The translations under genes and the position numbers were made by a program. A stretch of 64,000 bases of DNA from NCBI GenBank assembly GCA_024516035.1, contig CM044958.1, positions 23,148,108 to 23,212,107 on the forward strand. Direction: 5' to 3'. This DNA comes from Bactericera cockerelli (lineage: Eukaryota > Arthropoda > Insecta > Hemiptera > Triozidae). Below are positions 1,776 through 50,885 of the stretch, piece after piece. Each line of letters begins with the position of its first letter. The first letter of the stretch is position 1. A model generated the notes under the pieces. It was not told the DNA's origin. It saw only the letters and a program-made list of their open reading frames with translations, and ran no database searches.

Positions 1776-1955
1776 AATTAATCAGTATAACCAGTATCAG
1801 TATAAATAGATAAGTGAAAAGTTGTACTACATGTACATGAAAATCAGAACATACCTGGACAGCTGTTTCGAGTTTATTTGCTCTCATCAGCAGGTAATAG
1901 TTCTCAATATCCATGCCATCAACTAACCTCTCTATTTTAATCAGTATATTAAATT
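1776..1955 (-). mobile_element. Penelope-like or retrozyme-like repeat, copy 1
   Basis: On the minus strand this is the same ~170-bp repeat as 28737-28905, with words such as AGAGAGGTTAGTTGATGGCA, the hammerhead core, and a TTATACTGAT motif at both ends. Terminal reuse of that motif suggests the copy came from a partly dimeric template. That is usual for Penelope-like elements and retrozymes, which carry hammerhead ribozymes. No reverse transcriptase is present, so the assignment to a class is inferred from the ribozyme. Confidence 0.65.
1846..1904 (-). ncRNA. Hammerhead ribozyme (type I), copy 1
   Basis: The minus strand contains, in order: stem I strand AGAAC-tat-TACCTG, core CTGATGA, stem II GAGC-AAATAA-ACTC (one mismatch), core GAAA, a very short stem III made of ACAGCTGT, cleavage-site C, then CAGGTA-t-GTTCT closing stem I. 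Every conserved core base of a hammerhead is present. The tiny stem III is typical of ribozymes from Penelope-like elements, which work best as dimers. The only difference in the paired core from the 28790 copy is the weakened stem II. Confidence 0.8.
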
Positions 1956-5336: not shown

Positions 5337-5611
5337 TCAAGCCAGCGTCGATGGCATGTTGAATACACCGGTTCCCTTCAGAACACCGAAGTTATGCGAC
5401 ATCCAGCGAGGTTAAGACTTGGATGGGTGACCATTCAAATTCTAATTCTCGTGACGCTGGCTTTTCCCGGCCCCACTCAAGCTGGGTGAGGTCAATGTGA
5501 GTAGCAGGTTTGTGAGTTTCCTGCGAATGGAGGGTAAAACCCCCGTCCTGATATGACCATAGCAGTTGAAAGCGACGTTAAAACCCCACTTAAAAAAAAA
5601 AAAAAAAAAAA
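5337..5611 (+). mobile_element. 5S rRNA-headed SINE, full length with poly(A)
   Basis: The first ~90 bp follow a 5S rRNA gene: GGTTC...CACCGAAGTTA, CCAGCGAGGTTAAGACTTGG, then ATGGGTGACC, which cover the internal promoter elements. A central body follows (CTGGGTGAGG, GTTTGTGAGTTTCC, GCGAATGGAGGGTAA, GATATGACCA, GCGACGTTAAA), then about 20 A. A 7-bp direct repeat CATCCTT (5330-5336 and 5612-5618) brackets it and fits a target-site duplication. This is the SINE3 class of element. Other copies are at 11281, 22508 (tail only), 24941, 43239, 52405 and 54634. Confidence 0.85.
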
Positions 5612-10954: not shown

Positions 10955-11125
10955 TATGGTCATTCATACGTATAGACTGAAGTATATTATATGTATGTTA
11001 CTTGGATTATTTTCTTCTATCTTAAGACAGCTCGAAACAGCTGTCCAGCCAGGTATGTACTGATATTCAGGCACATCTAATACAAATTCTCACTTTTCTG
11101 TTTATACTGATTATACTGATTCCTG
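10955..11125 (+). mobile_element. Penelope-like or retrozyme-like repeat, decayed copy
   Basis: It keeps GCTCGAAACAGCTGTCCAG and CAGGTATGT of the hammerhead 3' half and the CTCACTTTTCTGTTTATACT end shared with 28737. The CTGATGA core is gone, so the ribozyme cannot work. Confidence 0.6.
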
Positions 11126-11280: not shown

Positions 11281-11508
11281 CAGTCAGCGTCAATGGCGTG
11301 TAGAATGCACCGCTTCTCGTAGGATCACCGAAGTTAAGTAACGTCCAGCGAGGTGATGACTTCATGATGCTGGTATTCCGGCCAAACCCAGGCTGGTCGA
11401 GTTTAATGTGATTATCAGAATTGTGAGTTTTCCGAATGGAGGGTAACACCACCGTCATGCAATGACCATGCAGCTGGAAGCGATATTAAACCCAAATTAA
11501 TAAAAAAT
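11281..11508 (+). mobile_element. 5S rRNA-headed SINE
   Basis: The head has GGCGTGTAGAATGCACCG, CTCGTAGGATCACCGAAGTT and GTCCAGCGAGGT, close to 5S rRNA. The body has CCCAGGCTGG, GAATGGAGGGTAACAC, ATGACCATGCAG and GCGATATTAAACCC. It is slightly more diverged than 5337-5611 and the poly(A) is short. The 102-residue minus frame is incidental. Confidence 0.8.
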
Positions 11509-28104: not shown

Positions 28105-28362
28105 ACTTCACTCCCTAAGTGAATTCAACTCTAATTGGACTAATTAAACACGGAAAATAGTTTTTCCTCACTTAAAAAGGTATTTCTTTAGAAGTAAAGA
28201 ATAATCTATTTGGAAGTTCAACCCCTTGAAATATTCTCATTAGTCTACCTTAAGAGGGTATTATTATTTATAAAGGCAGTCTCTCGGTAATAATTTCACA
28301 GATACTGGTCTGGGGGCAATCTCCTGGCAATAATTCTAGCTCTTCGGGGAAGGGCTCCTAGG
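28105..28362. repeat. Inverted duplication A, left arm
   Basis: It pairs with 29478-29790. Examples are GTCTACCTTAAGAGGGTATT against AATACCCTCTTAAGGTAGAC, and ATACTGGTCTGGGGGCAATC against GATTGCGCCCAGACCAGTAT. Identity is perhaps 75-80% with indels. Confidence 0.8.
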
Positions 28363-28736
28363 ATTTATTGGATTGTGAAACGCAACCACGGAGATGGGCG
28401 ATAAGCTGGCGAGAACAATGCTGGGGACGCGAAGGCAGCCCGTTTGTTTATGAATTGCTTTTCCCAATTCGGGAATGGGATATCATTCGCTGACCAGCCA
28501 GGGGTATACTTAGGAGGGCTCAGGAGTTTGTGAAACAAGGGATGCTTGCGTAGTTTTTTACCATTCGAAATATTCAAAGATCTTTATTAACTAGAAATTT
28601 ACTGCACAGATTTCAATACAATATTCCCTGTGTGGGATTGAGAAAAGTCTTGTTTTGAAATACCGAACAGCTGACCGACCGCAACAGTCAGCTGATAAAA
28701 TCTAAGGGCGAAATTATAGACGTTTTGTAATACAAC

Positions 28737-28905
28737 TTCTCACTTTTCTGTTTATACTGATTAAAATAGAGAGGTTAGTTGATGGCATAAGAACTATTAC
28801 CTGCTGATGAGAGCAAATAAGCTCGAAACAGCTGTCCAGGTATGTTCTAATTCATGTACATACAACTTCTTACTTTTCTCGGATTGCGTATACTGATGGG
28901 GAAAG
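28737..28905 (+). mobile_element. Penelope-like or retrozyme-like repeat, best copy
   Basis: It begins CTCACTTTTCTGTTTATACT and, after the ribozyme, runs into CTTCTTACTTTTCTCGG and TATACTGAT, a second start of the same unit. One unit plus a partial second copy is what reverse transcription of a tandem or circular RNA would leave. No protein is encoded. It interrupts arm B of the inverted duplication, so it inserted after that duplication or was lost from the other arm. Confidence 0.7.
28790..28848 (+). ncRNA. Hammerhead ribozyme (type I), intact core
   Basis: The order is stem I outer AGAAC (28790-28794), internal loop tat, inner TACCTG (28798-28803), CTGATGA (28804-28810), stem II GAGC with loop AAATAA and GCTC (28811-28824), GAAA (28825-28828), and stem III ACAGCTGT overlapping the last A (28828-28835). 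Then comes C at the cleavage site (28836), with CAGGTA (28837-28842), t and GTTCT (28844-28848) closing stem I. All core positions fit the hammerhead consensus and the helices are perfect. Stem III is self-complementary and nearly loop-less, so a dimeric fold is expected. It should self-cleave after position 28836 when transcribed. Confidence 0.88.
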
Positions 28906-29477
28906 CTGGGGAATGTTTGGACAAAATCTGTAGAACATTGCACATTTATCAATAGACAATAGGACAAAAGAAGAAATAATAAATCTTACCTGATTCTGCA
29001 GGACTCGCATGCTGTGAAGTTTAAACACTGAAAAAACCCGACTCTATACAAAATTTAAAAAGTCGACTAGTTGATTGAATCCAAATCCAAAATTTGTTTT
29101 CTAGTGCCTATGTGCCTAAGAAAGTCCGAACCAATTTCAGGGACCCCAGCTAGCCTAGAAATTTTCCTCGATTTTGATTGGTCAAACTGAATTAGGTAAG
29201 GGAAAAGGTCTGTGAGAACTTTTTAGTTGTGAAATTCTCACACTAAATTCGGAAACTTTCGAACCAGACCAGTGGCGTCGTCTGAATTTTAATTTTCAAC
29301 AGTGGCGTGAACTAAATTTGTTTTTTTTTTTTTCATAACTTTCTTTACAGAAATAAATAAAATTTGTGTAAACTTTGGTTTTGTGTCTGTCTGTCGGTTT
29401 GTAAATACATGACTTGTAACTCGCAAATCTCAGAAACTGCTAAATGGATTTCAACGAAATTTTTACAATCCAATTAA

Positions 29478-29790
29478 CCTTAGGAGCCCTTCTTTGAAAA
29501 GTTAGAATATGCCAGGAGATTGCGCCCAGACCAGTATCTGCGAAAGTATAACCAAGAGACTACCCTTAAAAATAATAATACCCTCTTAAGGTAGACTAAT
29601 AAGAATATTGAACTTCCAAATACATTATTCTAGAGAAATACCTGTATTAGGGAAAAAGTATTTTGTGATTTTCTGTGTTAATTAATCCAGTAGGGTTTTT
29701 TACTATTTAATTAAAATTATTGGTAGTTGTATTTTTACAATATATAGAAAACTTCACCAAGACATCCAGTTAGAATTGAATTCACTTAGA
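29478..29790. repeat. Inverted duplication A, right arm
   Basis: Reverse partner of 28105-28362, with about 70 bp extra near 29695-29765. It lies in the spacer between the two B arms. Confidence 0.8.
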
Positions 29791-30049: not shown

Positions 30050-30910
30050 CCATTGAAAAAATAAAATTTAGTTCACGCCACTGTTGAAAAATAAAACTCA
30101 GTCGACGCCACTGGTTTGGTTCGAAAGTTTCTGATATGAGCGTGAGAATGTTACAACCAAAAAGTTCTCAGAGACCTTTTCCCTTATCTAAATATCTAAC
30201 TTTTACCTGCCACCCGAACGTATGATAACGGGGTTGACCAATCAAAATCGAGGAAAATTTCTAGGCTACCTGGGGTCCCTGAAAAGCATTCCGTTCTACT
30301 CAGTTCAGTTTCGTTCGATCTTTCCTCTGTTAATGTTGTCAGTGCTGGCTAAGCTTTCAAAGTGATTTCTTTTTTGAATTTATACAGGTGTTTTAAATTA
30401 GCATATAGGTACTAGAAAACAGATTTTGGATTTGGATTCTATCAACTATTCGACTTTTTAAATTTTGTAGAGTCGGGTTTTTCAGTGCTTAAACTTCACA
30501 GCATGCGAGTTCTACAGAATCAGGTAAGATTTAATATCTTTTTTCTTCCGTCCTATTGATAGATGTTAAATGTTCTACAGAGTTTATCAAAATTTCTTAG
30601 AATCAATCGATCTCATACCCCAGCATACACTCTAGGAAATATATTATGAAACAGGATTAAACTGACCTTAGGGCGGAATTAATAGACAACATCAATAACT
30701 TAAGTCGTTGGTAAGTGTTGATTTTCCCTACCTTACACAGTACGCAATCCGTGACTTAGCGCCACAGAGGTATTACAAAAACGTCTATTAATTCCAGCCT
30801 TAGATTTTATCAGCTAACTATCGATATCGGTCAGTTATTTGGTATATTAAAACAAGATTTTCCTCAATCCCAATCCCACAAAGGGAATATTTCACTCGAA
30901 TCTGTGCAGT
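30050..30910. repeat. Inverted duplication B, right arm
   Basis: Reverse partner of 28600-29340. It holds about 90 bp extra near 30278-30400 and a complete MITE (30666-30803), of which only one end is seen in the left arm. Confidence 0.8.
30666..30803. mobile_element. MITE with GGGCGGAATTAATAGAC ends
   Basis: CTTAGGGCGGAATTAATAGA at the left and TCTATTAATTCCAGCCTTAG at the right are inverted copies. The interior has TTACACAGTACGCAATCCGT. A second whole copy lies reversed at 31741-31878. The target duplication is not clear. Confidence 0.65.
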
Positions 30911-31740: not shown

Positions 31741-31878
31741 CTTTAGGGTGGAATTAATAGATGTTTTTGTAATACCTCTATGGCGCTAAATCACGGATTT
31801 CGTACTGTGTAAGATAGGGAAAACCGACGCTTAGCAATGACTTGAATTATAGTATTTGTCTAATAATTTCGCCCGTAG
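31741..31878. mobile_element. MITE, second copy
   Basis: The left end TTTAGGGTGGAATTAATAGA and right end CTAATAATTTCGCCCGTAG are inverted. The interior TACCTCTATGGCGCTAAATC and TACTGTGTAAGATAGGGAAA is the reverse of 30666-30803. Confidence 0.6.
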
Positions 31879-36211: not shown

Positions 36212-36741
36212 TTATTCCAAGGCTTTTGGATAGACGACATTTTTAGTTTTCCCTTCAGGAGCATGGATGTATAGACTGGATGGTTTGCCCACGCGAGAGC
36301 ACGCCACGTACAGCTGTCCATGGGAAAAGCAGGGGGTTTTTAAATCAACACCGCACACTTCAAGGGATTGTCCTTGAGCCTTGTTTATGGTCATGGCGAA
36401 TGCAGGCCTGATTGGAAATTGGATCCGTTTGAACTCAAACGGCACATCAGATGGTATGATTGGCAATCTAGGAAGTAGGAAATCTTTTCCTTTGAACTTC
36501 CCTTTAATGATCGTTGCTTCGATTACATTATTCATCAATTTTTTGACTACCAATCTTGTGCCGTTACAAAGTTCAGGTGGATGAATATTCCTCATCAGGA
36601 TCACTGGTATGCCAACTTTAAGTTTCAACTCATGGGGTGGCACCCCCGGCAGGTCGAGAGAGTTGAGGAACTCGGTTGGATAGTTCACTGCCTCGTCTTG
36701 GTTCATCATCGAGTCCAGTGATGTGTACGTTTTGTACTCGC
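36212..36741 (-). CDS. Helitron exon 6: helicase C-terminus
   Basis: It follows a 604-bp intron (36742-37345) with acceptor CTACAG. LPGVPPHELKLKVGIPVILM, FPIRPAFAMTINKAQGQSLE and HGQLYVACSRV are helicase motifs of the Pif1 family as found in Helitrons. It ends at TAA 36212-36214. Confidence 0.92.
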
Positions 36742-39700
36742 CTGTAGGAGAGAAGAGCACTTGTTAAATAGATAATAATTATGTACCTTGTTCGTGGGTA
36801 CTGTTATTTAATACATTATTTGTTTGAAAATAAGTACTTACAATACACATACCTATATCTATATCTATAAAGGAAAGCTGTCTGTATGTGTGTGTGTATG
36901 TATAATTGTATGTATGTTCTTTATATAAATCCACACCGTTTGACCGAGAAACCTGAAATTTTGCACATAGGTCCGTTTGGATTAGGGAATTCTTCTAGGC
37001 TAGGTTATATCTCCCTAAGGTTAAGCTACAATGAGCAAGGATAAAAATTGGATGGGTGACGCAAAAAATATTCAGGTTTTTTTTCAGTGTGGGTGTGGGT
37101 GTGTTTATGGTGTGTTTGATGGGCTGGCGAAGCGGCGGTAGTTATTATAACCCGCTAATAATTATATACAATAATATATGCATATCTAAACATAATATAT
37201 CTTATGTTTGTATGATTATCATTTGTGTGTGCTTGATGATTTAGCGGAGCCGGCGATGGGCGCTGGTATATTTTGTTTACTTTAAGAGGAATTTAGAGAC
37301 ATAAAATGACAGATAATGTAAAAGAACAGTGATACTACCACTTACCTGGTATTTTGTCTTGTATTGTTGAGTTGATAGTATTAACATCACTGTTCTTAGG
37401 TGCCAAAATAGCTCTTGAACTCAGCCAGTCTTTGTCTGTGAATTTGGTTTCAATAGTGGGAAATACCAAAGCTATAAGTTCATCTGTACAACTGGCTAGA
37501 GTACAGAAATCTTCTGGTAGTTTATGAGTGGTATCATACCCATTTCCAATTGCCAGCAGTTGTTCAGAGAACTCTCCGGCTGAAGTGTTGTCACGTTGGA
37601 GCTCGATCCTCATGTTGGTTTTTAAAGTGAGCGTCTTTACGTGACACCACAGAGAAGAAGACTTCAGGCAGGCATTTATTTCGTCAGCAGGGGTTGACCT
37701 TGGAATTACTGGCAATGTTTGACGAAAATCGCCCGACAGCAAAATTAAAGCATTTCCAAAGATCTGGGCGCTGCTTCTGAAATCTTTCAGAGAGTTTGAC
37801 AGAGCCTCCAATGATTTTTTATGCGCCATTGTGCACTCGTCCCAAATGATAAGGTCGCATGTTTTCAAAACTCGACCCATGCCTGAGTTCTTGGTGATGT
37901 TGCATGTTGGGGTCTCTGTCAGATCAACGTTCAGTGGTAGCTTCAGTGCAGAATGAGCAGTTCTGCCTCCATCTAATAATGTGGCCGCTATGCCGGAGGA
38001 TGCGACTGCCAATGCGATTCCACCTTCGGCTCGTATCTTTGCGAGGATAAGAGATATCAGGAAAGTTTTCCCTGTTCCTCCTGGAGCGTCCAAGAAGAAA
38101 AATCCTCCTTGCTTGTCTATAACTCTGCTCATTATAATTTCAAATACCTCCTTTTGTTCACAATTTAGTTTGGAGATGTTTTCCCTTACAAAAATCTGGA
38201 GCTCTTCAACATTGAAGCTAGATTCACGCCGGTAATCAATCTGGTCAACTTCTGATCGATCTATATTAATCGTTAAACCTAATTGGTCTAACGACTTATG
38301 TGCAATTGAAGTACAAATATCTTCAATTTCTAACAGAGCTTGATTGAAAATTACCGGTGTATACATGTCGCTTGAATGACGATGGAGAATATCTTCACTC
38401 ATACTCTCCTTGTGTTTCTCCCAAAGTTCTTGCGGGTTCGATGGAGCGCAAGTTGTTAGTATTATAGAGAAGAGGAAACGTATTTGCTGAGGTAAGGCCG
38501 TTTCTGAGGCATCTGAAAGTGCATTGTCCCAATGGGAGTCATTCTCCAGAAGGTTCAAGAGCTGGCATGCTTCTCTGTATGTTGCACAAACCCTATCCTC
38601 CACGTTCTTCAAGGCCTGAAATGATGTGGGGCCGCAGATATTGACCAACAACAACCGAAGAAAGAAGCACTCCGCATTGTTAGGGTGCACAGTGTAGATC
38701 CGGCCTATTGCATCTGACGCATACATATTTGCCTGTCCTTCTACTGGTTTCCCTTCCTTACGGGCTACAAATTTCTTGGTACTTGTGTTCCAAGTGTAAT
38801 ATGTAGGTACTTCTGAGTAGAGGAGTTTCTTTGCAAATGAATCAGATGAACAGAGGGAAAAAAAAGCTGTCAGGGTTGTTTCAGGGGGCGTTTCAGCTCT
38901 GGCCTGGGCATTGTCGGAGGTGAAATAAACCCGTTGTCCGTTCTCCAGATGCACAGCTAGATGAACCACTGTAGGATATCGCTCGTGGATGGGGAAAGAA
39001 AATATTCTCCACACAGCTTCATTACTGCTGATGTATCGTCCCAGCTGATATTGTAGGATTTCATCTCTGTTTTCTACTGCAAATACAGCCATGTCTGATC
39101 CTTTGTTTACATATTTGCATATGTACTTAATGGACTTGACTGAATTGCAGTATTCCACGTTGATATGTGCTTGAAATGCTTTTGACAATATGGGTGAATA
39201 AGGGACAACCCATCTATTATCTACATCCATATCATTTCCTCGCACTTTCAATGTAGCATACTGGCCTCCATTGTCAGTTGACCTTCTACGGTAGAGGGGG
39301 TATCCGTCATTGCCACTGACAGTTTCTGGAACCATTTCTCTTGGGTATCTGAAAGAAAGAGGGAGAAAAATGTCATGTAAATTTATAGGGACAAAATACA
39401 TTGTTGTAGAGGTATAATGATTCCTAATAATATTATTGAAATAATGACCAAGTTCCAACTACTTCCGAAAAAACTTGGCTTCTAGAAGTAGGTAGTACGT
39501 AATATCTCTAAACTAAAACCAAGTGAATTTGGCCAATGTCCCCTCGGACTTAATTATCTACCCTTCCAAAAAATTTGGGCTTTAAAAGTAGGAAGTGATA
39601 TTTCAGAAAGACGGCCAAGTGAGTTCGGCTAGTGTCCATTCAGACTTTTTTACCTAGTATCCTTAAGACACTATAAATATAAAAATCTCCCTTGCCTTTA

Positions 39701-42700
39701 TCCCATATTAGCTTATGTTGCTTTTGGGGTCGGCATTGTTAAACCTCATGGTTGAGGTTGGTAGGTTGGAGCAAGTTTTTTATGGCTGGATGCCCTTCCT
39801 AACGCCAACGATTCTATTTGATTTTAACGTTCTGATCTGGACGGGGGTGTTACCCTCCATTCGCTGGGAATCGTACCAGCTACCCACATCAACCTCACCC
39901 AGCCTGGGTAGGGCCGGAAATGTCAGCCTCACGTGTTTGGAGGGAACAGAATTTTCTTCGAAAAGTCTGCTCCAACCGGGGATCGAACTCGGGATCTCTG
40001 GACTACGGGCAGTAGTCACAACCATTACGCCACGGAGGCTGGCGTATGGCCAGGCCGTACACTAATGGCCATATTTTATAGCTTGAATTTTTTTCTTCTA
40101 AATTCGACGACAACCTACATTAAGTCAAAACTACTAAATTTGATTCATACAAAATGTGGCCAAGTATTTTTTAAGGAACACAGGTAGACATGAGGAACAC
40201 AGGTAGACATGACTAAAGGACACTGGCGGAATTCACTTGTCATTCATTCTGATTTATTACACTACCTTTGGAGGCCGTAATTCGTTTTTGTTCTGAGATA
40301 TATAACTTTTAAAGCCGTTTTTTTTTTTAATTTAGTTAGGACCTGGTCCTTTTTTCATTTTCAGTGTGTGTTTAAGTCAGTACATCAGTTTCTTATAATG
40401 ATACCTATTTATAATGAATATGCTTCAGGAAAATTTACATGCCTAATTATTATCTAATTGAGTAGTCACTGTGGCCAAGTGAGTTATCGCGCTAGGCATT
40501 GCCTGTATGGTGACCTGGGTTTGATCTCCAGCGGGGCAGGATTTTTTCTGCTCTGTATTTGGGTGTTCGGGGTCCACTCATACCTCGTGAGAAAAAATGA
40601 GTAGCCGCTTTAATGTTAGGAGCGACCAGTGGCGGAATTATAGGCAAAAATTATATATTGGGATATCAAAAATACGGAAAAGTCCTATAATTCTGCGCTA
40701 CCCACTAAAATTCTGATATAATAACACAAAGAACACACATTTATTTATTTATTATTTAATTGGTACTTACTGTACACTGGACAGTATTAATTGCTATTAA
40801 TTAAGTGAGTACCTACCTACCTACCTAAAAATGTATGTGATGTGTAAGTAATATATACCTAATTATGCTTGCTATAACTATATCATTATTCAAATCGAAC
40901 TTCATTTTTTATAATTGTATATAGATTACCTATATTATTCTTATGAATCATTTATATTAGTGGAGTTTTGAATACTTAAGTACCATTAGAATTAGGTATA
41001 AACCAGTTATAATAAACAATTTACCTCTTTGTACATTTTCCATCAGACATACATGGTGAGTTGCTATTCAGGGAACCACATGGACCATGGATCATGTTCT
41101 TAGTCACAATTTGAAATAGCTCAGGATCGACATTATTGTCTGGTATCTCCGCTGAGATGATTTGGTCAATCTGATTTGGTCTAATTTTTTCCACTAACCA
41201 AACCAAAATGTGGGCATGGGGAAGACCTGAAGAAATAAAAATAAATAATAATTAGATAGGTTGGTACTCATCAGTTGGGTTTTATTTAGAAATCTTTGAC
41301 CAACAACTGAAAATTATACGTTTCATCTGGCTTATCTTATCAAAAGATGTAAATTTGGATGAAGAATTTGGAATCTGTAGGTCGCTAGTGCGGGTCCTGC
41401 CAGAACCGTAAAAATTTACCACTGTATAAGGTTTAATTATTGGTTGTGATATTATGACTTTTGAAAATAGCAGTAATCTGCTTTAGAAAAAAGAAGCACT
41501 TTACCTCTCTTTTGCCATTCAATGGAGTACATCCAGCATCTAACTTCCCCAAAAACTTGTTGCTTGGTGAGTAAATCTAACAGGAATTTGCATTTCCGTT
41601 TGAATATACGGGCAGTAATATCGTGCCTGTCACTTGCGGCTTGTCCAGGCAACAGCAATTCTTTTATGTCATCCCATGTTGGGTTACAGGTAAATGTGAT
41701 GAATAGGTCTGGACGGCCCCATGTTCTCACAAACGCCATAGCATCTTGTGCATATTCATGCATGTGTCTGGGGCTCCCAGTGAATGTGGATGGTAGAATC
41801 GTCGCTCTGCCTAATTCATTGGGGTCTACGTTGCCATCATTTGCAACAGCATCACGAAGGTGGACATATTGTTCTGATCTCAATTTAGTTTGATTGTGTC
41901 GTATGTACAACAATCTCTCGGTTTCAATTTTCGCGTACATATCGACAACAAATTGATGGAAAAGTTGTCGACATTTTAGAATGTGGTTTTCATTCTCGCG
42001 AATCATAAGTCTGTATGCATAAAAGTTCATGGCTGAGACCTTCTTGGAAGTCGGCTCACCAGTAGCTGGTGTGATCTGTTTGATTAGAAAATGATATCCA
42101 CTTTCTCCATAGGGGAATATGAGAGGATATTGTAATCCATCATAGTAAGCATGTGTCTCTGTGATTCTTTTTATTACATTGCTTCTTTTTTCAATTACAA
42201 TATCCCTGTGCTGCTGTATATCATTTGTCATTAAAATGGCAACTTCATTGACTTGAGGAGCATTAAACCGTCTTTCATGTTCTCCTGCAAATTAAAAAAA
42301 GAACTATATAGATATTTTCTTGAAATGTAGTTGACTTTTTTTTGTACATTGGTAATTTTTCTTTAAATAGGTAATTTTATAATTTCATTTAATTTCATTT
42401 AAAAATTTATACATAAAATATATTATTTACAACGCACCTCCATACATGAAATGATATGGTTGTTAGTATTTATTATTATCTAAAACGAAGAGTTGTTTCG
42501 TAAAACTAAAGTGTACGTTTAAGTTTAAATCAACCAGTCACTGATAATGATACCTATAATATGAACAATAGAACATAACATGAAGTACAACACGGAGTTC
42601 TCGAAATGGACCAAAGTAAAAGTATAACCTACTCATTAATAAATAATGAAAATAAACTGGTGTGACACCACACAACATTCGGATTCTGCCATTGGTGACT

Positions 42701-45180
42701 CAACGGTAACAGTTAGCTAGAAAGTATCATCAAATTTTTAATCAGCACCTCAAAAGCGTTGAATTTGATACGTCACAACTCCTGTCTAGGATTAATAATG
42801 GAAAAATGAGCCCAATTGGGTCCCCACCCAAAATACCGGGGAATAGGGGCCGGATTTCTAAAAGTTCAAGATATCAAAAAATGATCGAATTAAACCCATT
42901 GAAACCTATTGTTTTTTTTTTTTTTTTTTTTTAAGAAAAACTTGTTCTAATAACGTATTTTTTTATCGTTTCACCAGAATCGTCAGATGGCGATCAAAAG
43001 GCCGCCACTGGCGGCACCGATTTCATTGAAAAGTTTCGTATCACATCCTCTCTAAAAATAAAGTATTACATACCAAAGTAGCTCTTACCGTTCTTACTGA
43101 CACACGGACCAATGGCTGAAACTTTGCATTTAGGCTCTCGGGACACTAAAACATGTTTTGGCACTAAAAACTGACCACGAAAATTTGCGGTGATTCTATT
43201 ACTTTCCTTTCTATAGGATAAGGAAAATAAAAACTTATCTGTCTGTGTTGATGGCGTGTTAAATGCATCGGTTCTCGTAGGATCACCGAAGTTAAGCAAC
43301 GCCCAGCGAGGTGGATACTTCGTGATGCTGGATTCCGGCCTAAGCTAGGCTAGGTGAGGTTAATGTGGGTAGTAGTTTTGTGAGTTTCTTGCAAATGGAT
43401 GGTAACACCCCCGTCGTGATATGACCATGCAGTTGAAAGTGACGTTAAAAAAAAAACATAAAAAAACAAAAAAAGAACATACCCACTGGAGTTCGATCTG
43501 CTTTAATGACAACTCTATGTTCATCATGGGTCATCTTCTCCAGAGAAGATTTAAATGATTGGAGAAGATGGTTTTCCTGGTGTAACATAGACTGAATATT
43601 ACTGACAATGTCAGACCGAACACCTGGAATGTGGTGACACCTAGTCTCAGTCTCTTCCTCTTCATCCCCCATGAAGTAAATCTGGAGGAACTTCGGTGTT
43701 TCACCTTCTGGTGGTAGCATGGATCCTATGCGATGGTAAACCTGGAGTGGGAAAAATATAAGATTTTCTAGTTAATCATGTGAGTGATATCACAATTACT
43801 CAAAACTGAATTACTAAATCCATGCATTGCTTGGTAGTCGAACCACCATCTTCAGCCTTAACGATCAAGTTACTGAGATGAGTTAAAAAATATATCTATT
43901 AGTTACGTTTATAGTGATATAATTTAGATTCCGTGAATTCACATATACCTATGAATAACAAAAATTGCTATTTTTTGGCGGCCTCCGTGACAGAGCAGTA
44001 TTACACTGACCAAGTATGCGAGATGCCCGAGTTCGAATCCCAGCGGGTATACATTTTTTCTTTGATTGTGTGAGGTTCATTCATACCTCGAGGATGTTAT
44101 TATTATTATTAATAATAATAATTCAATCTAGCTTACCTGTCCTTGTATGGTGAAGGTTGACTGAAATCCAGACTGTTCTACGATATTTGTAGCACCGAAT
44201 GACGTCATTTGGAAACAGCTGTTGTACCGTCGCAAGTTTTTCAGGAAGTGTTTACTTTCTGTAGTCTCTCCAGCCATGTATGTTTGTAGTGTGGCAGGTG
44301 GTGGCGCTAAAGGCTCCAATTTTACTTTTCCGCCATTGCAGCACAAACCAGGAGGCTCTGTGGGGAACTTTCGTGCTTGGCAATGACGGCAAATTTTGTT
44401 CATAGAACCAATTCGAATTTTTGGATGATTAGCATAGTCCTTTTGCCTGTCATAAGCAAAGCCTACCATAGCGAGTTCTGGATTTTTTTGTCTCCTTGCA
44501 GCTGTTCTTATCCTGTCTTCTGTTATTCTCTCTGTCCTTTCCTCTTCAGTCTCATTTCTTCTATCTTCTTCAACTCTCATTCTATTCTGTGTCAGTCTCT
44601 CTGTTCTTTCTTCTTCGGTCTCGTTTCTTCTATCTTCTTCAACTCTCATTCTATTCTGTGTCAGTCTCTCTGTTCTTTCTTCTTCGGTCTCGTTTCTTCT
44701 CTCTTCTTCAACTCTCATTTTTTTCTGTGTCAGTCTCTCTGTTCTTTCTTCTTCGGTCTCGTTTCTTCTATCTTCTGCAACTCTCATTTTTTTCTGTGTC
44801 AGTCTCTCTGTTCTTTCTTCTTCGGTCTCGTTTCTTCTTTCTTCTTCAACTGTTATTCTTTTCTGTGTCAGTCTCTCTGTTCTTTCTTCTTCGGTCTCGT
44901 TTCTTCTATCTTCTTCAACTCTCATTCTATTCTGTGTCAGTCTCTCTGTTCTTTCTTCTTCGGTCTCGTTTCTTCTATCTTCTTCAACTCTCATTCTATT
45001 CTGTGTCAGTCTCTCTGTTCTTTCTTCTTCCGTTTCTCGCCTTCTTGTCTCTTCAATTCTTTCTCTATTTGTTTGTAGACGGGATTGACTCTGTGCTGGG
45101 GTCTCATTCATGCGGATCTGTCTCATTTGTTTTGCTTTAGGTTGAACACTTCCAATGGATTTGCGTTTTTTTGGTGGCAT
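36212..45180 (-). CDS. Helitron RepHel protein (HUH nuclease plus Pif1-type helicase), six exons
   Basis: Rolling-circle transposase that nicks DNA, transfers strands and unwinds them. The proposed exons are 45180-44137, 43741-43483, 42284-41505, 41226-41025, 39348-37346 and 36741-36212. All introns are GT-AG, junction phases agree (0,1,1,2,1), and the sum is 4818 bp or 1605 residues with no internal stop. In order there are eight 23-residue charged repeats (38-221), a zinc finger CRHC...CC (264-281), the Helitron-like N domain with FITFTCNP (629-636), HUH motif PHAH (697-700), YICKY (837-841), Walker A GGTGKT (1185-1190), Walker B IIWDE (1262-1266), LSGDFRQTLPVI, NKAQGQS (1549-1555) and LYVACSR (1573-1579). 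The ATG at 45180 is chosen because a good acceptor lies 9 bp upstream. The exon model is inferred from the sequence and needs RNA support. Confidence 0.85.
36858..37158 (+). mobile_element. Non-autonomous Helitron, 301 bp, nested in intron 5
   Basis: Plus strand. A|TCTATATCTATAAAGGAAAG starts it and AACCCGCTAA|T ends it. Its first ~200 bp match the 5' end of the large Helitron read from 48993, and its last ~60 bp (TTTGATGGGCTGGCGAAGCG) match the large element's 3' end. It is a deletion derivative of the host element's family sitting antisense in its intron. Confidence 0.85.
37346..39348 (-). CDS. Helitron exon 5: catalytic Tyr and helicase core
   Basis: It starts YPREMVPETVSGNDGYPLYR after a 1.68-kb intron (39349-41024). 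YICKYVNKG supplies the nicking Tyr pair, and the Pif1 part has APGGTGKT, IIWDECTM, GDFRQTLPVI and TNMRI. It ends DKIPG at donor G|GTAAGT. There is no stop or frameshift over 668 codons. Confidence 0.92.
39726..40044 (-). mobile_element. tRNA-headed SINE, full length, in Helitron intron 4
   Basis: On the minus strand the head GCCAGCCTCCGTGGCGTAAT and B box GAGTTCGATCCCCGG are followed by the shared SINE body (CTACCCAGGCTGGGTGAGG, GCGAATGGAGGGTAACACCC). A tail follows with GTTAGGAAGGGCATCCAGCC and AACCTCAACCATGAGG. Tails with GGGCATCCAGCC are familiar from RTE-type LINEs of many animals, which suggests the partner that copies it. It has the same sense as the Helitron gene. Confidence 0.85.
40465..40620 (+). 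repeat. tRNA-like SINE (TTTCTGCTCTGTA family)
   Basis: GTGGCCAAGTGAGTTATCGC (A-box region), GACCTGGGTTTGATCTCCAG (B box) and GATTTTTTCTGCTCTGTATT, then GGTCCACTCATACCTCGTGA. It shares pieces with 31650 and 43978. Confidence 0.6.
40628..40704. mobile_element. Tiny palindromic MITE
   Basis: AGTGGCGGAATTATAGG is opposed by CCTATAATTCTGCGCTACCCACT about 40 bp later, giving a 16-18-bp imperfect stem. It is inserted just behind the SINE in Helitron intron 4. Confidence 0.5.
41025..41226 (-). CDS. Helitron exon 4: HUH motif
   Basis: It follows a 278-bp intron (41227-41504) and starts GLPHAHILVWL, carrying the two metal-binding His of the HUH nuclease. The splice junction falls four residues before the first His. 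It ends DGKCTKR with a split Arg codon. Confidence 0.9.
41505..42284 (-). CDS. Helitron exon 3: Helitron-like N domain
   Basis: It starts at acceptor TTGCAG. It contains SAMNFYAYRLMIR, GRATILPSTFTGSPRHM and the first Rep motif FITFTCNPTWDDI. It ends EWQKRG at donor G|GTAAAG. The 1.2-kb intron before it (42285-43482) holds a 5S-headed SINE and an older reversed repeat. Confidence 0.9.
42650..43223 (-). repeat. GGATAAGGAAAG repeat family, reversed copy in intron 2
   Basis: Read on the minus strand it starts with TTTCCTTATCC, then GAAAGGAAAGTAATAG (43195-43218), contains GAAACTTTTCAATGAAATCG, and ends near GTTGTGTGGTGTCACACCAG (42655). It corresponds to 17138-17790 and 59030-59365. Confidence 0.6.
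43239..43456 (+). mobile_element. 5S rRNA-headed SINE in Helitron intron 2
   Basis: The best-preserved 5S segment in the window: GGCGTGTTAAATGCATCGGT, TCTCGTAGGATCACCGAAGT and TAAGCAACGCCCAGCGAGGT. The shared body and ATATGACCATGCAGTTGAAA tail follow. It lies antisense to the Helitron gene. Confidence 0.85.
43483..43741 (-). CDS. Helitron exon 2
   Basis: It begins after acceptor CTCCAG with VYHRIGSMLPPEG and ends ADRTPVG at donor G|GTATGT. Joined to exon 3 it reads TPVGEHERRFNAP, the conserved Helitron stretch, which confirms the junction. The intron before it (43742-44136) holds a reversed SINE and a tRNA-like SINE. Confidence 0.85.
43775..43890 (-). repeat. tRNA-headed SINE (GATATCAC-tail family), reversed
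   Basis: On the minus strand ATCTCAGTAACTTGATCGTT, GATGGTGGTTCGACTACC and GAGTAATTGTGATATCAC match 32063-32215. It lies in Helitron intron 1. Confidence 0.65.
43978..44122 (+). repeat. tRNA-headed SINE with (ATT)n tail
   Basis: GCGGCCTCCGTGACAGAGCA and GCCCGAGTTCGAATCCCAGC are A- and B-box parts. GTTCATTCATACCTCGAGGA and a (TTA)n/(AAT)n tail follow. Confidence 0.6.
44137..45180 (-). CDS. Helitron exon 1: repeats and zinc finger
   Basis: Residues 1-348, starting MPPKKRKS (a basic, nuclear-localisation-like start). It contains the eight-fold repeat and the ICRHC...LCCNGGKVKL zinc finger found near the start of Helitron Rep proteins. It ends ...FTIQGQ at donor AG|GTAAG. An in-frame upstream ATG at 45240 lies within the proposed 5' UTR intron, so I do not use it. 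Confidence 0.85.
44518..45069 (-). repeat. Coding 69-bp tandem repeat, eight units
   Basis: It encodes eight 23-residue units of the form NRMRVEEDRRNETEEERTER plus LTQ in Helitron exon 1. Units differ by a few residues (K/R, D/E, I/M). They are highly charged and should form a long helix or coiled coil. The 233- and 214-residue plus frames are the antisense of this repeat. Confidence 0.9.
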
Positions 45181-48993: not shown

Positions 48994-50885
48994 TTTATCT
49001 TTTCTTCTACCGCTTTTTTCCATTCTAACCGATCTAATGCTAGATTTTGCCAATTTGATCCCATAACTTTCCTAACCTCTTCACACCATCTCATCCTTTG
49101 TCTTCCTCTATTTCTCGTTCCTGTTGGTTTCCAGAGTGTGACCACTCTAGTCCATCTCTTCTTTTCCATTCTCATTATGTGACCTGCCCATTTTATTTTC
49201 ATTTTTTTTTGTTATTTTTTCAATATTTTCAACTGGTGCTAATCTTTGAATGGTTGTATTTCTCACTCGGTCAGATTTCTTTATTCCTAACATGCTTCTC
49301 ATCATCGTAGTTTGGGTAGATTTAAGTTTCATCAGTTGGCATTTCTTTAGAGACCAGGTTTGACTGCCATAGTATAAACATGGGAATATACAACTTCTTA
49401 GTATTTTTATTTTTGCTTTAATTGATATTTTTGATTTGAATATACCTTTTAGGGCCCAATATTTTTTCCAGGCCAGACTTCTTCTTCTATCTAACTCTTG
49501 GTCCATTCTGTTATCCAGTGATATTAACTGTCCAAGATAAATATATTCTTGAACTTGACTAATTATTTTTTCATTTACTACTTAAAATTTTTGTTTTTTT
49601 CAGTATTAATCTGTAGTCCAAATTTGTTGCTTTCTTTTTCCAACTGTCCCAACATTTCCTTAAGTTCAGTCTCATTATTAGCAATCAAGACAACATCATC
49701 AGCAAACCTTAAATTATTTAGTTTAATATTTCCAATTTTTATTCCATAATTTTTCCAGTCCATTTTATTAAATATGGACTGCAGCACATTAATAAACAGT
49801 GTTGCCGATAAAGGACAGCCTTACCGGACGCCCCTGCTGATATTGAAGGTTCTTCCTTTCTTGTCTGTAGATATAAATGCCTTGTTTTTATTATAAATTG
49901 TTTTTATTATACTAATAATTTTTTTGGACACTTTTAATCTTTCCAAACTTGACCAAATTTTTTCCTTTCTGATAGAGTCAAAAGCTAGGGAATAGTCCAC
50001 CATACCAAGAAAAATATCTATATTGAATTCTTTACATTTTTCAATAAGTTGATTCACTGTCTGTAAATGATCTGTTGTCGAGTAAGAGGGACGAAATCCA
50101 GCCTGTTCTTCATCTTGATCTTTGTTTATTTCCCCTGATATTTTCATTTGTATTATTTTTGTAAACAGCTTGTAGAAATTGGGGGCCAGACTTATTGGGC
50201 GGTAATTTGAAACTATGTCTCTGGGACCTTTCTTATGTATTAAAATTATTGAACTTGTTTCCCATTCTTCAGGTATTTCATTAATGTCTATTATTTTATT
50301 ATAAAGTACAAGTAAATATCTTATGAGCCATTCTCCTCCTGCTTTAATTAATTCTCCAGTTACTCCATCTTCACCTGGAGTTTTGCTGTTCTTCAAATTT
50401 TTGATTGCTAGTTCTATTTCTTCTCTTGTTATTTTATGTGTCATACTACACTCTTCACTCTGCAAATTTTCTATTTGATTTATCAATTCCTCTGAATCTT
50501 CTGCAACTTGTGGGTGTATACTGTAGACTTTTTCGTAATGTCTTGTAAATTCTTCTACAATACCTTCTCTGTCTGTCATTATTCCACTTTCAGTCTTGAT
50601 TCCATGAATGTAGCATTTCCTAATGAATGAAATATTTTTTATTATTTTCTTTGTAGAGCCACTTTCTTTCACTATCTCTTCTATGATCTTCTCTTCATAT
50701 TTAGCAATGTCTTTTCTGATTTCTTTTCTGGCTTGTTTTCTTAATTTTGCATGCTCTAGTTTTTCCTGTGTTGTTTTATTTTCTTTTTTGTTAAGTGTTT
50801 CTCTTTTTCTAATTATTTCTTTGTTTCTTCTGAAATTTTGTTACTGTATGATCTTCATATTTTTTCAGTTTGTTATCTTCATTCT
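48994..50885 (-). pseudogene. LINE reverse transcriptase, RTE-like, broken
   Basis: Fingers/palm segments are SSIILIHKKGPRDIVSNYRP, GFRPSYSTTDHLQTVNQLIE, motif A MVDYSLAFDSI, motif B GCPLSATLF and motif C FADDVVLI (49706-49683). The C-terminal part has WAGHIMRMEKKRW and RGRQRMRWCEEVRKVMGSNW, as in RTE-clade proteins. Lesions are a stop codon TAA at 49821-49823 where the family has Gln before GCPLS, and frameshifts near 50830, 49575 and 49205. It would have copied its own RNA at nicked target DNA. It is dead. Confidence 0.85.

Follow-up and report, generated by a model that had tools for sequence, protein, structure and literature searches.

A hammerhead ribozyme-bearing repeat family of Bactericera cockerelli as a predicted self-cleaving non-LTR retrozyme with a sharp 3' end

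The window (the whole 64,000-nucleotide stretch of Bactericera cockerelli contig CM044958.1 that was analyzed) contains three copies of a short repeat family, designated F1. Copy A (149 nt, positions 28731-28879, plus strand) comprises 1.13 units and has both ends inside the unit, as determined from a direct repeat with a spacing of 130 and from alignment to the 144-nt unit of a genomic copy, L048. The initial annotation stated that the repeat restarts its own sequence at its far end, and this is the case: positions 28730-28749 recur at 28860-28879 with 95% identity. The single unit of copy A (28732-28861, plus strand) is 130 nt long, 14 nt under the 144-nt unit of L048 and copy B, rather than the ~160 nt previously suggested. 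Copy B (1782-1947, minus strand) has an intact ribozyme core (1852-1896), a 3' tail, and a 10-bp flanking repeat, TTAATTTAAT. Copy C (11029-11119, plus strand), referred to as winC in the samples below, is 5' truncated within stem II of the ribozyme and has the 3' tail TTATACTGATTATACTGA. The GC content of copies A and B is 34-35%, and the unit has no open reading frame because it is too small.

A host repeat related to the surroundings of copy A occurs without the element at 30401-30910 (minus strand), an unoccupied site, and a shorter partial copy of this host repeat, also without the element, is located at 31745-31874 (plus strand). Both empty copies have ~18 nt at the junction that are missing from copy A. 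Therefore, copy A was probably inserted with a small deletion and without target duplication. A large inverted repeat (28154-28380 and 29461-29664) forms a fold-back element around copy A. Elsewhere in the window there are repeats resembling 5S rRNA at 5341-5462, 11283-11375, and 43241-43333 (59.7, 30.3, and 32.2 bits; cut-off, 38), which are probably 5S-derived SINEs. A broken Helitron with Helitron_like_N and PIF1 domains lies at 36212-42291 (minus strand). The protein look-up with its open reading frame gave one relative at 87% identity, and the named ones among the best 120 relatives listed were mostly from insects and a spider, but also from frogs, a lizard, a snail, and hookworms, with ~55-69% identity. 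An open reading frame for a non-LTR-type reverse transcriptase (RVT_1) is located at 49824-50840 (minus strand), and its named matches were mostly from insects.

Reading the bases of copy A, together with its Rfam matches, identified a type I hammerhead ribozyme with a complete core at 28790-28848 (plus strand). The outer part of stem I pairs AGAAC (28790-28794) with GTTCT (28844-28848), and the inner part pairs TACCTG (28798-28803) with CAGGTA (28837-28842). The core elements are CTGATGA (28804-28810) and GAA (28825-28827). Stem II consists of 4 bp between GAGC (28811-28814) and GCTC (28821-28824), closed by the loop AAATAA, and the predicted cut is 3' of C28836. The type I assignment with all core bases, the stem I of 6 plus 5 bp, the 4-bp stem II, and their positions had all been given in the initial annotation and were borne out. 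A caveat applies to stem III. The palindrome ACAGCTGT is present at 28828-28835, but in the monomer it can form only 2 bp with an AGCU tetraloop; the 8-bp stem is available in a dimer alone.

The ribozyme of copy A scored 34.3 bits (E value, 7.6e-5) against the Rfam model Hammerhead_HH9, below the curated cut-off of 52, and its trimmed core scored 32.5 bits against Hammerhead_1, below the curated cut-off of 34. These scores are significant even though they are under the cut-offs. The core of copy B at 1852-1896 (minus strand) scored 31.9 bits against Hammerhead_1 (E value, 5.4e-4), also below 34. A loose core pattern matched the window twice, compared with 0.16 matches expected, and at least two matches were found in 1 of 100 shuffled sequences. 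Thermodynamic folding was of no use as proof of a hammerhead. The nearest-neighbor optimum for copy A was a misfold (-18.9 versus -11.3 kcal/mol for the hammerhead pairing), and the result proves nothing because the optimum for Rfam's own consensus was likewise a misfold (-12.8 versus -7.8 kcal/mol).

The whole genome (565 Mb in 1032 contigs) was searched for relatives. The F1 core had 4007 near-matches with no more than two mismatches, 2006 on the forward and 2001 on the reverse strand, although an intact core is not present in all of them; the reversed-pattern control had none. This result supports the earlier proposal that the type I hammerhead belongs to a family that is dispersed and encodes no protein. 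In the genome-wide Hammerhead_1 search, 74 of 85613 candidates were scored, which gave 54 matches, 51 of them over the cut-off, and matches were found in 0 of 14 control genomes. In the proposed check against Rfam models, six of eight family members from this search were over the cut-off and the two window copies were under it. It is very unlikely that the motif arose by chance or is so decayed that it lacks a function in every copy. The window scores under the curated cut-offs and the loss of core bases in many single copies (11 of 27 in the second sample described below; L057 in the first) are what such an origin would predict, but it does not account for thousands of near-matches against none for the reversed control, or for cores that are complete in each of the two full copies of the window. 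Neither exact-pattern searches of GTDB and viral collections nor a blastn search against phages gave a match; the window's own genome may be absent from those collections.

The hammerhead matches sorted by sequence into three families: F1, the family in the window; F2, defined by CTGATGAGTCC...GGACGAAACTAGTC; and F3, defined by CTGATGAGTTC...GAACGAAACGATCGTC, with L016 and L032 as decayed F3-like members. The F2 members (L008-L011, L018, L020, L022, L023, L025, L027-L029, L033, L035, and L036) share repeat similarity that begins near stem I. Their stem III is minimal (ACTAGT), resembling the minimal type described for Penelope elements. The cleavage triplet is altered in L027-L029, and in L010 stem I is repeated upstream as an inverted, snap-back copy. 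Among ten aligned F3 stretches, five (L001, L003, L007, L024, and L034) have a B-box-like sequence close to GGTTCAAACCCTGGGCTCGG, changed in some, that precedes the hammerhead by ~45-60 nt; in L001 and L034 there is an A-box-like TGGCNCAATGG as well. These five perhaps represent a tRNA-SINE with an embedded hammerhead; the Rfam tRNA model and ARAGORN reported no tRNA at these box-like stretches. L014/L015 (C7:17217000-17236800) is an array of twenty F3 hammerhead 3' halves with spacings of ~710, 1517, and then 619, 124, and 107 nt. In L026 (~1040-1220) an F3 copy is immediately preceded by a microsatellite of the hammerhead 5' half with a period of ~22 bp (CCTAACTGATGAGTTCAAATAAG).

In F2 and F3, stems I and II are built from other base pairs than in F1. 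In an alignment of 24 chosen ribozymes (9 from F1, 6 from F2, and 9 from F3), 95.7% of the stem cells pair. The covariation score was 0.569, compared with 0.181 for shuffled and at most 0.080 for slid alignments, and both-sided changes were found in 79 cells versus 28.3 in shuffles. The numbers of changed pairs (8 versus 7.2 shuffled) and of pair types (15 versus 16.1) were not above those of the shuffles. The compensatory stem changes that were sought from the outset are present between families but hardly at all within F1, which varies little (both-sided change in 1 of 32 RNAalifold pairs).

F1 copies were read in detail as samples: of the 419 and 254 candidates from two DNA searches, 40 each were scored. 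Sample 1, from a full-length query and including the three window copies, was chosen by likeness to copy A and favors long copies; sample 2, from a query with the 3' half, is less biased. In sample 1, ribozyme sites had 31 changes in 2124 cells (core, 4 in 476), compared with 103 in 2196 elsewhere. However, the special conservation of the ribozyme that this suggested was withdrawn, as it was not reproduced in sample 2, in which the changes were 15/349 in the core, 30/1098 at other ribozyme sites, 39/536 in the 5' part, and 19/925 in the 3' part, so that the core was more changed than the 3' part and less changed than the 5' part. In a first set, whose members were selected through Rfam or because they resemble copy A, 49 of 51 rows kept all core bases, the misses being L057 and the truncated winC. 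In sample 2, 16 of 27 nonduplicate rows did so (19 of 32 with duplicates) and 11 of the 27 had lost one; part of this loss falls at a CpG. Conservation of the ribozyme inside F1 is therefore unproven, and single F1 copies decay, as expected for dead insertions. The failure to reproduce the conservation lowered our confidence in a retrozyme explanation and raised that in a template that is not cut, which is considered below.

The ends of the copies were located by alignment to the 144-nt L048 unit. Seven same-flank duplicates (L062, L066, L081, L082, L090, L101, and L105) were removed before 3' ends were counted; the 5'-end counts additionally leave out winC, L059, L075, and L042 from sample 1 and L092 and L100 from sample 2. 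Nine further copies were aligned to the unit but lie outside these end samples (L004, L005, L015, L017, L021, L030, L031, L037, and L039). Most copies share a 3' end, TTTATACTGAT(T), which was found in 37 of 40 copies in sample 1 and 26 of 27 in sample 2; the exceptions are copy A itself, L049, L059, and L092. Another ACTGA lies no more than 14 nt beyond this end in 24 of 40 and 11 of 27 copies, respectively. In the window, the unit position at which most of the genome copies examined end corresponds to a predicted apical hairpin loop region at 28751-28766 (plus strand; TTTATACTGATTAAAA), placed there by circular folds and by these 3' ends.

The 5' ends are ragged, and the copies are mostly 0.7-1.7 units long. 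The 25 usable copies of sample 2 span 0.66-1.65 units: 7 are shorter than one unit, 10 have 1.0-1.2 units, 6 have 1.2-1.44, and 2 have 1.44-1.7. With 18 of 25 thus containing at least one full unit, the earlier expectation of more than one unit per insertion, as a multimeric template would give, was supported. In sample 1, whose query favors long copies, 9 of 36 usable copies have 1.0-1.2 units, 15 have 1.2-1.44, 8 have 1.44-1.7, none have 1.7-2.2, and 4 have at least 2.2. Most multiunit copies are partial rather than full dimers; a tandem trimer is located at C12:3109679-3110113. The F1 copy L044 has at its 5' end three head-to-tail copies of ~22 nt (CGAAACAGCTGTCCAGGTATGT) that span the cleavage site, a triplication that perhaps arose through slippage or template jumping.

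Setting of 5' ends by hammerhead cleavage was rejected as a general rule. The 5' ends lie within 2 nt of the cleavage site in 2 of 36 (sample 1) and 1 of 25 (sample 2) copies, and within 5 nt in 7 of 36 and 2 of 25. Because the ends are hardly enriched at the cut, the insertions are no evidence that the RNA was cleaved. It is possible, and at somewhat long odds a serious contender, that F1 is a SINE-like element whose template is uncut tandem read-through RNA, with the hammerhead a dispensable trimming device or a relic. An internal cleavage site in all 40 copies of sample 1 and in 25 of the 27 of sample 2 (a crude test), 5' ends that are not clearly at the cut, and a sample 2 core that loses bases and does not change more slowly all agree with this. 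The possibility also retains its standing partly because ribozyme mutants of an anole Penelope element are reported to have left insertion in vitro unchanged (PMC11167929). Yet the stems of the ribozyme have been kept through compensatory change in three families, the copies most like copy A, when so picked or selected by Rfam, keep the core, and decay after insertion would remove core bases as well.

Short target duplications are not general. Flanking repeats of at least 7 bp were found in 6 of 45 copies, compared with a shuffled mean of 2.6 and maximum of 8; 6 of 51 rows were left out of this test and 13 of 83 out of the corresponding test of long flanks. The 10-bp repeat flanking copy B is matched by 0.165% of random pairs. 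Long direct repeats in the flanks are rare, with 6 of 70 pairs scoring at least 22 versus a shuffled mean of 0.8 (maximum, 3). Two of these pairs (L069 and L088) fall in sequence that is tandem or poly-T, three (L054, L071, and L083) are away from the element ends, and L102 has a flush 40-bp direct repeat. The latter speaks against F1 being satellite DNA that multiplied through segmental copying or unequal exchange, without RNA. Some copies do form tandem pairs or trimers at a spacing of 141-144 nt, and some are within larger duplications (for example, L047/L066 and L061/L062), but most copies read are single and have unrelated flanks; one of their ends is common, the other is ragged, and a short tail is frequent. 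Moreover, the near-matches are about equally frequent on both strands. A satellite origin is thus highly improbable. Likewise, the long tandem arrays of newt-type hammerhead satellites were not found among the copies read, which for the most part lie singly at scattered loci and form no more than short tandems.

The schistosome element SMalpha carries a Pol III promoter with A and B boxes inside the element. A type 2 Pol III SINE of this kind, with its own A and B boxes, would be alike in size, dispersal, and possession of a hammerhead. However, the best A- and B-box matches in the F1 unit are at chance level, since shuffled units score as well (P = 0.29 to 1.0), and we consider this origin improbable. 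SMalpha has been termed SINE-like with a type I hammerhead (PMC8490949), and the schistosome SMalpha/W-elements resemble F1, as far as their description goes, in being SINE-like repeats with type I hammerheads; the SMalpha-like W36.2_W001 is given there as 335 bp, compared with the 144-nt unit of F1.

The closest resemblance in the published accounts is to animal hammerhead repeats, which are described as transcribed, self-cut, and circularized, with a copying enzyme thought to come from another retroelement (PMC7229834, PMC7761336). Non-LTR retrozymes of coral, mussel, and axolotl are reported to share with F1 the type I hammerhead, the lack of a protein, and low GC content, and metazoan retrozymes also occur in thousands of copies (~5000 in mussel), as dimers to multimers, with a highly self-paired circular RNA prediction and longer target duplications when these are present (PMC7229834). 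They are given as repeats of 150-450 bp with RNAs of ~170-400 nt (PMC7229834), slightly larger than the F1 unit of 144 nt. Both full window copies have an intact core and a stem III that can form, in a short repeat slightly under that size range with GC below 50%, and no open reading frame, and F1 loci mostly hold more than a single unit. Putative target duplications of over 4 bp measure 10 bp at copy B and 40 bp at L102; most copies show none. F1 differs in having copies mostly of 0.7-1.7 units, a sharp 3' end in the predicted apical loop, and ACTGAT tails.

Other hammerhead-bearing elements are more distant. Plant LTR retrozymes are likewise non-autonomous elements with a circular RNA (for F1, a predicted fold), but they are described as having type III hammerheads, a length of ~700 bp, an LTR, a PBS, and a PPT (PMC7761336, PMC7229834). 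Penelope-like elements, as reported for anole PAc, resemble F1 in partial-tandem copies, optional tails, and copying that starts inside a stem-loop, as is proposed for F1; they prefer AT-rich targets and encode a reverse transcriptase and a GIY-YIG endonuclease (PMC11167929), whereas the F1 unit encodes nothing. There is no room for an open reading frame in 144 nt, and stem III, ACAGCUGU, is present. Because stem III can form, F1 belongs with the canonical retrozymes and not with the minimal hammerheads of Penelope elements, which lack this stem. These comparisons support identification of the element as a non-LTR retrozyme that is non-autonomous and predicted to be self-cleaving; as a family it is new, but its kind has been published. 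The initial reading as a family of non-autonomous retroelements is thereby supported by the genome-wide copies, with self-cleavage as a prediction. No description of the F1 family was found among the titles and abstract openings listed in full-text searches of the open-access literature.

The L048 unit folded as a circle had a computed energy of -43.4 kcal/mol, compared with -22.6 (standard deviation, 3.5) for shuffled sequences (z = -6.0; 0 of 500 as low). The circular folds were weaker for copy A (z = -3.4) and copy B (z = -1.7). In the predicted fold of L048, the common 3' end is the apical loop opposite the ribozyme. We consider it highly probable that, overall, retrozyme RNA is read through, cut, and copied from this loop on a circular or oligomeric template. 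Read-through transcription of the copies would yield RNA of more than one unit, which the type I hammerhead may cut between GUC and CAGG. The monomers would probably be closed to rod-like circles by a host ligase. From the anatomy of the copies, the reverse transcriptase of an autonomous element would begin opposite the ribozyme, in the apical loop UAUACUGAUU, and slippage at this start could leave the ACTGAT tails. Target-primed copying would then proceed round the circle or along an oligomer, mostly for 0.7-1.7 units, with a variable 5' stop. A Penelope-type enzyme is a candidate helper. More tentatively, and with considerable doubt, we propose that the apical loop is a dedicated start for reverse transcription, at which a Penelope-type enzyme would enter the circular RNA, slip to produce the ACTGAT tails, and complete one round with a ragged extra.

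In its account of animal retrozymes, a review describes them as having no conserved motif that reveals the mobilizing enzyme (PMC7761336). What is new here is the sharp 3' end in the predicted apical loop. Found in two samples, it supplies such a motif and makes the helper testable. If the proposal is true, then a start in the apical loop would supply the signal, missing so far, by which animal retrozymes are linked to the enzyme that helps them.
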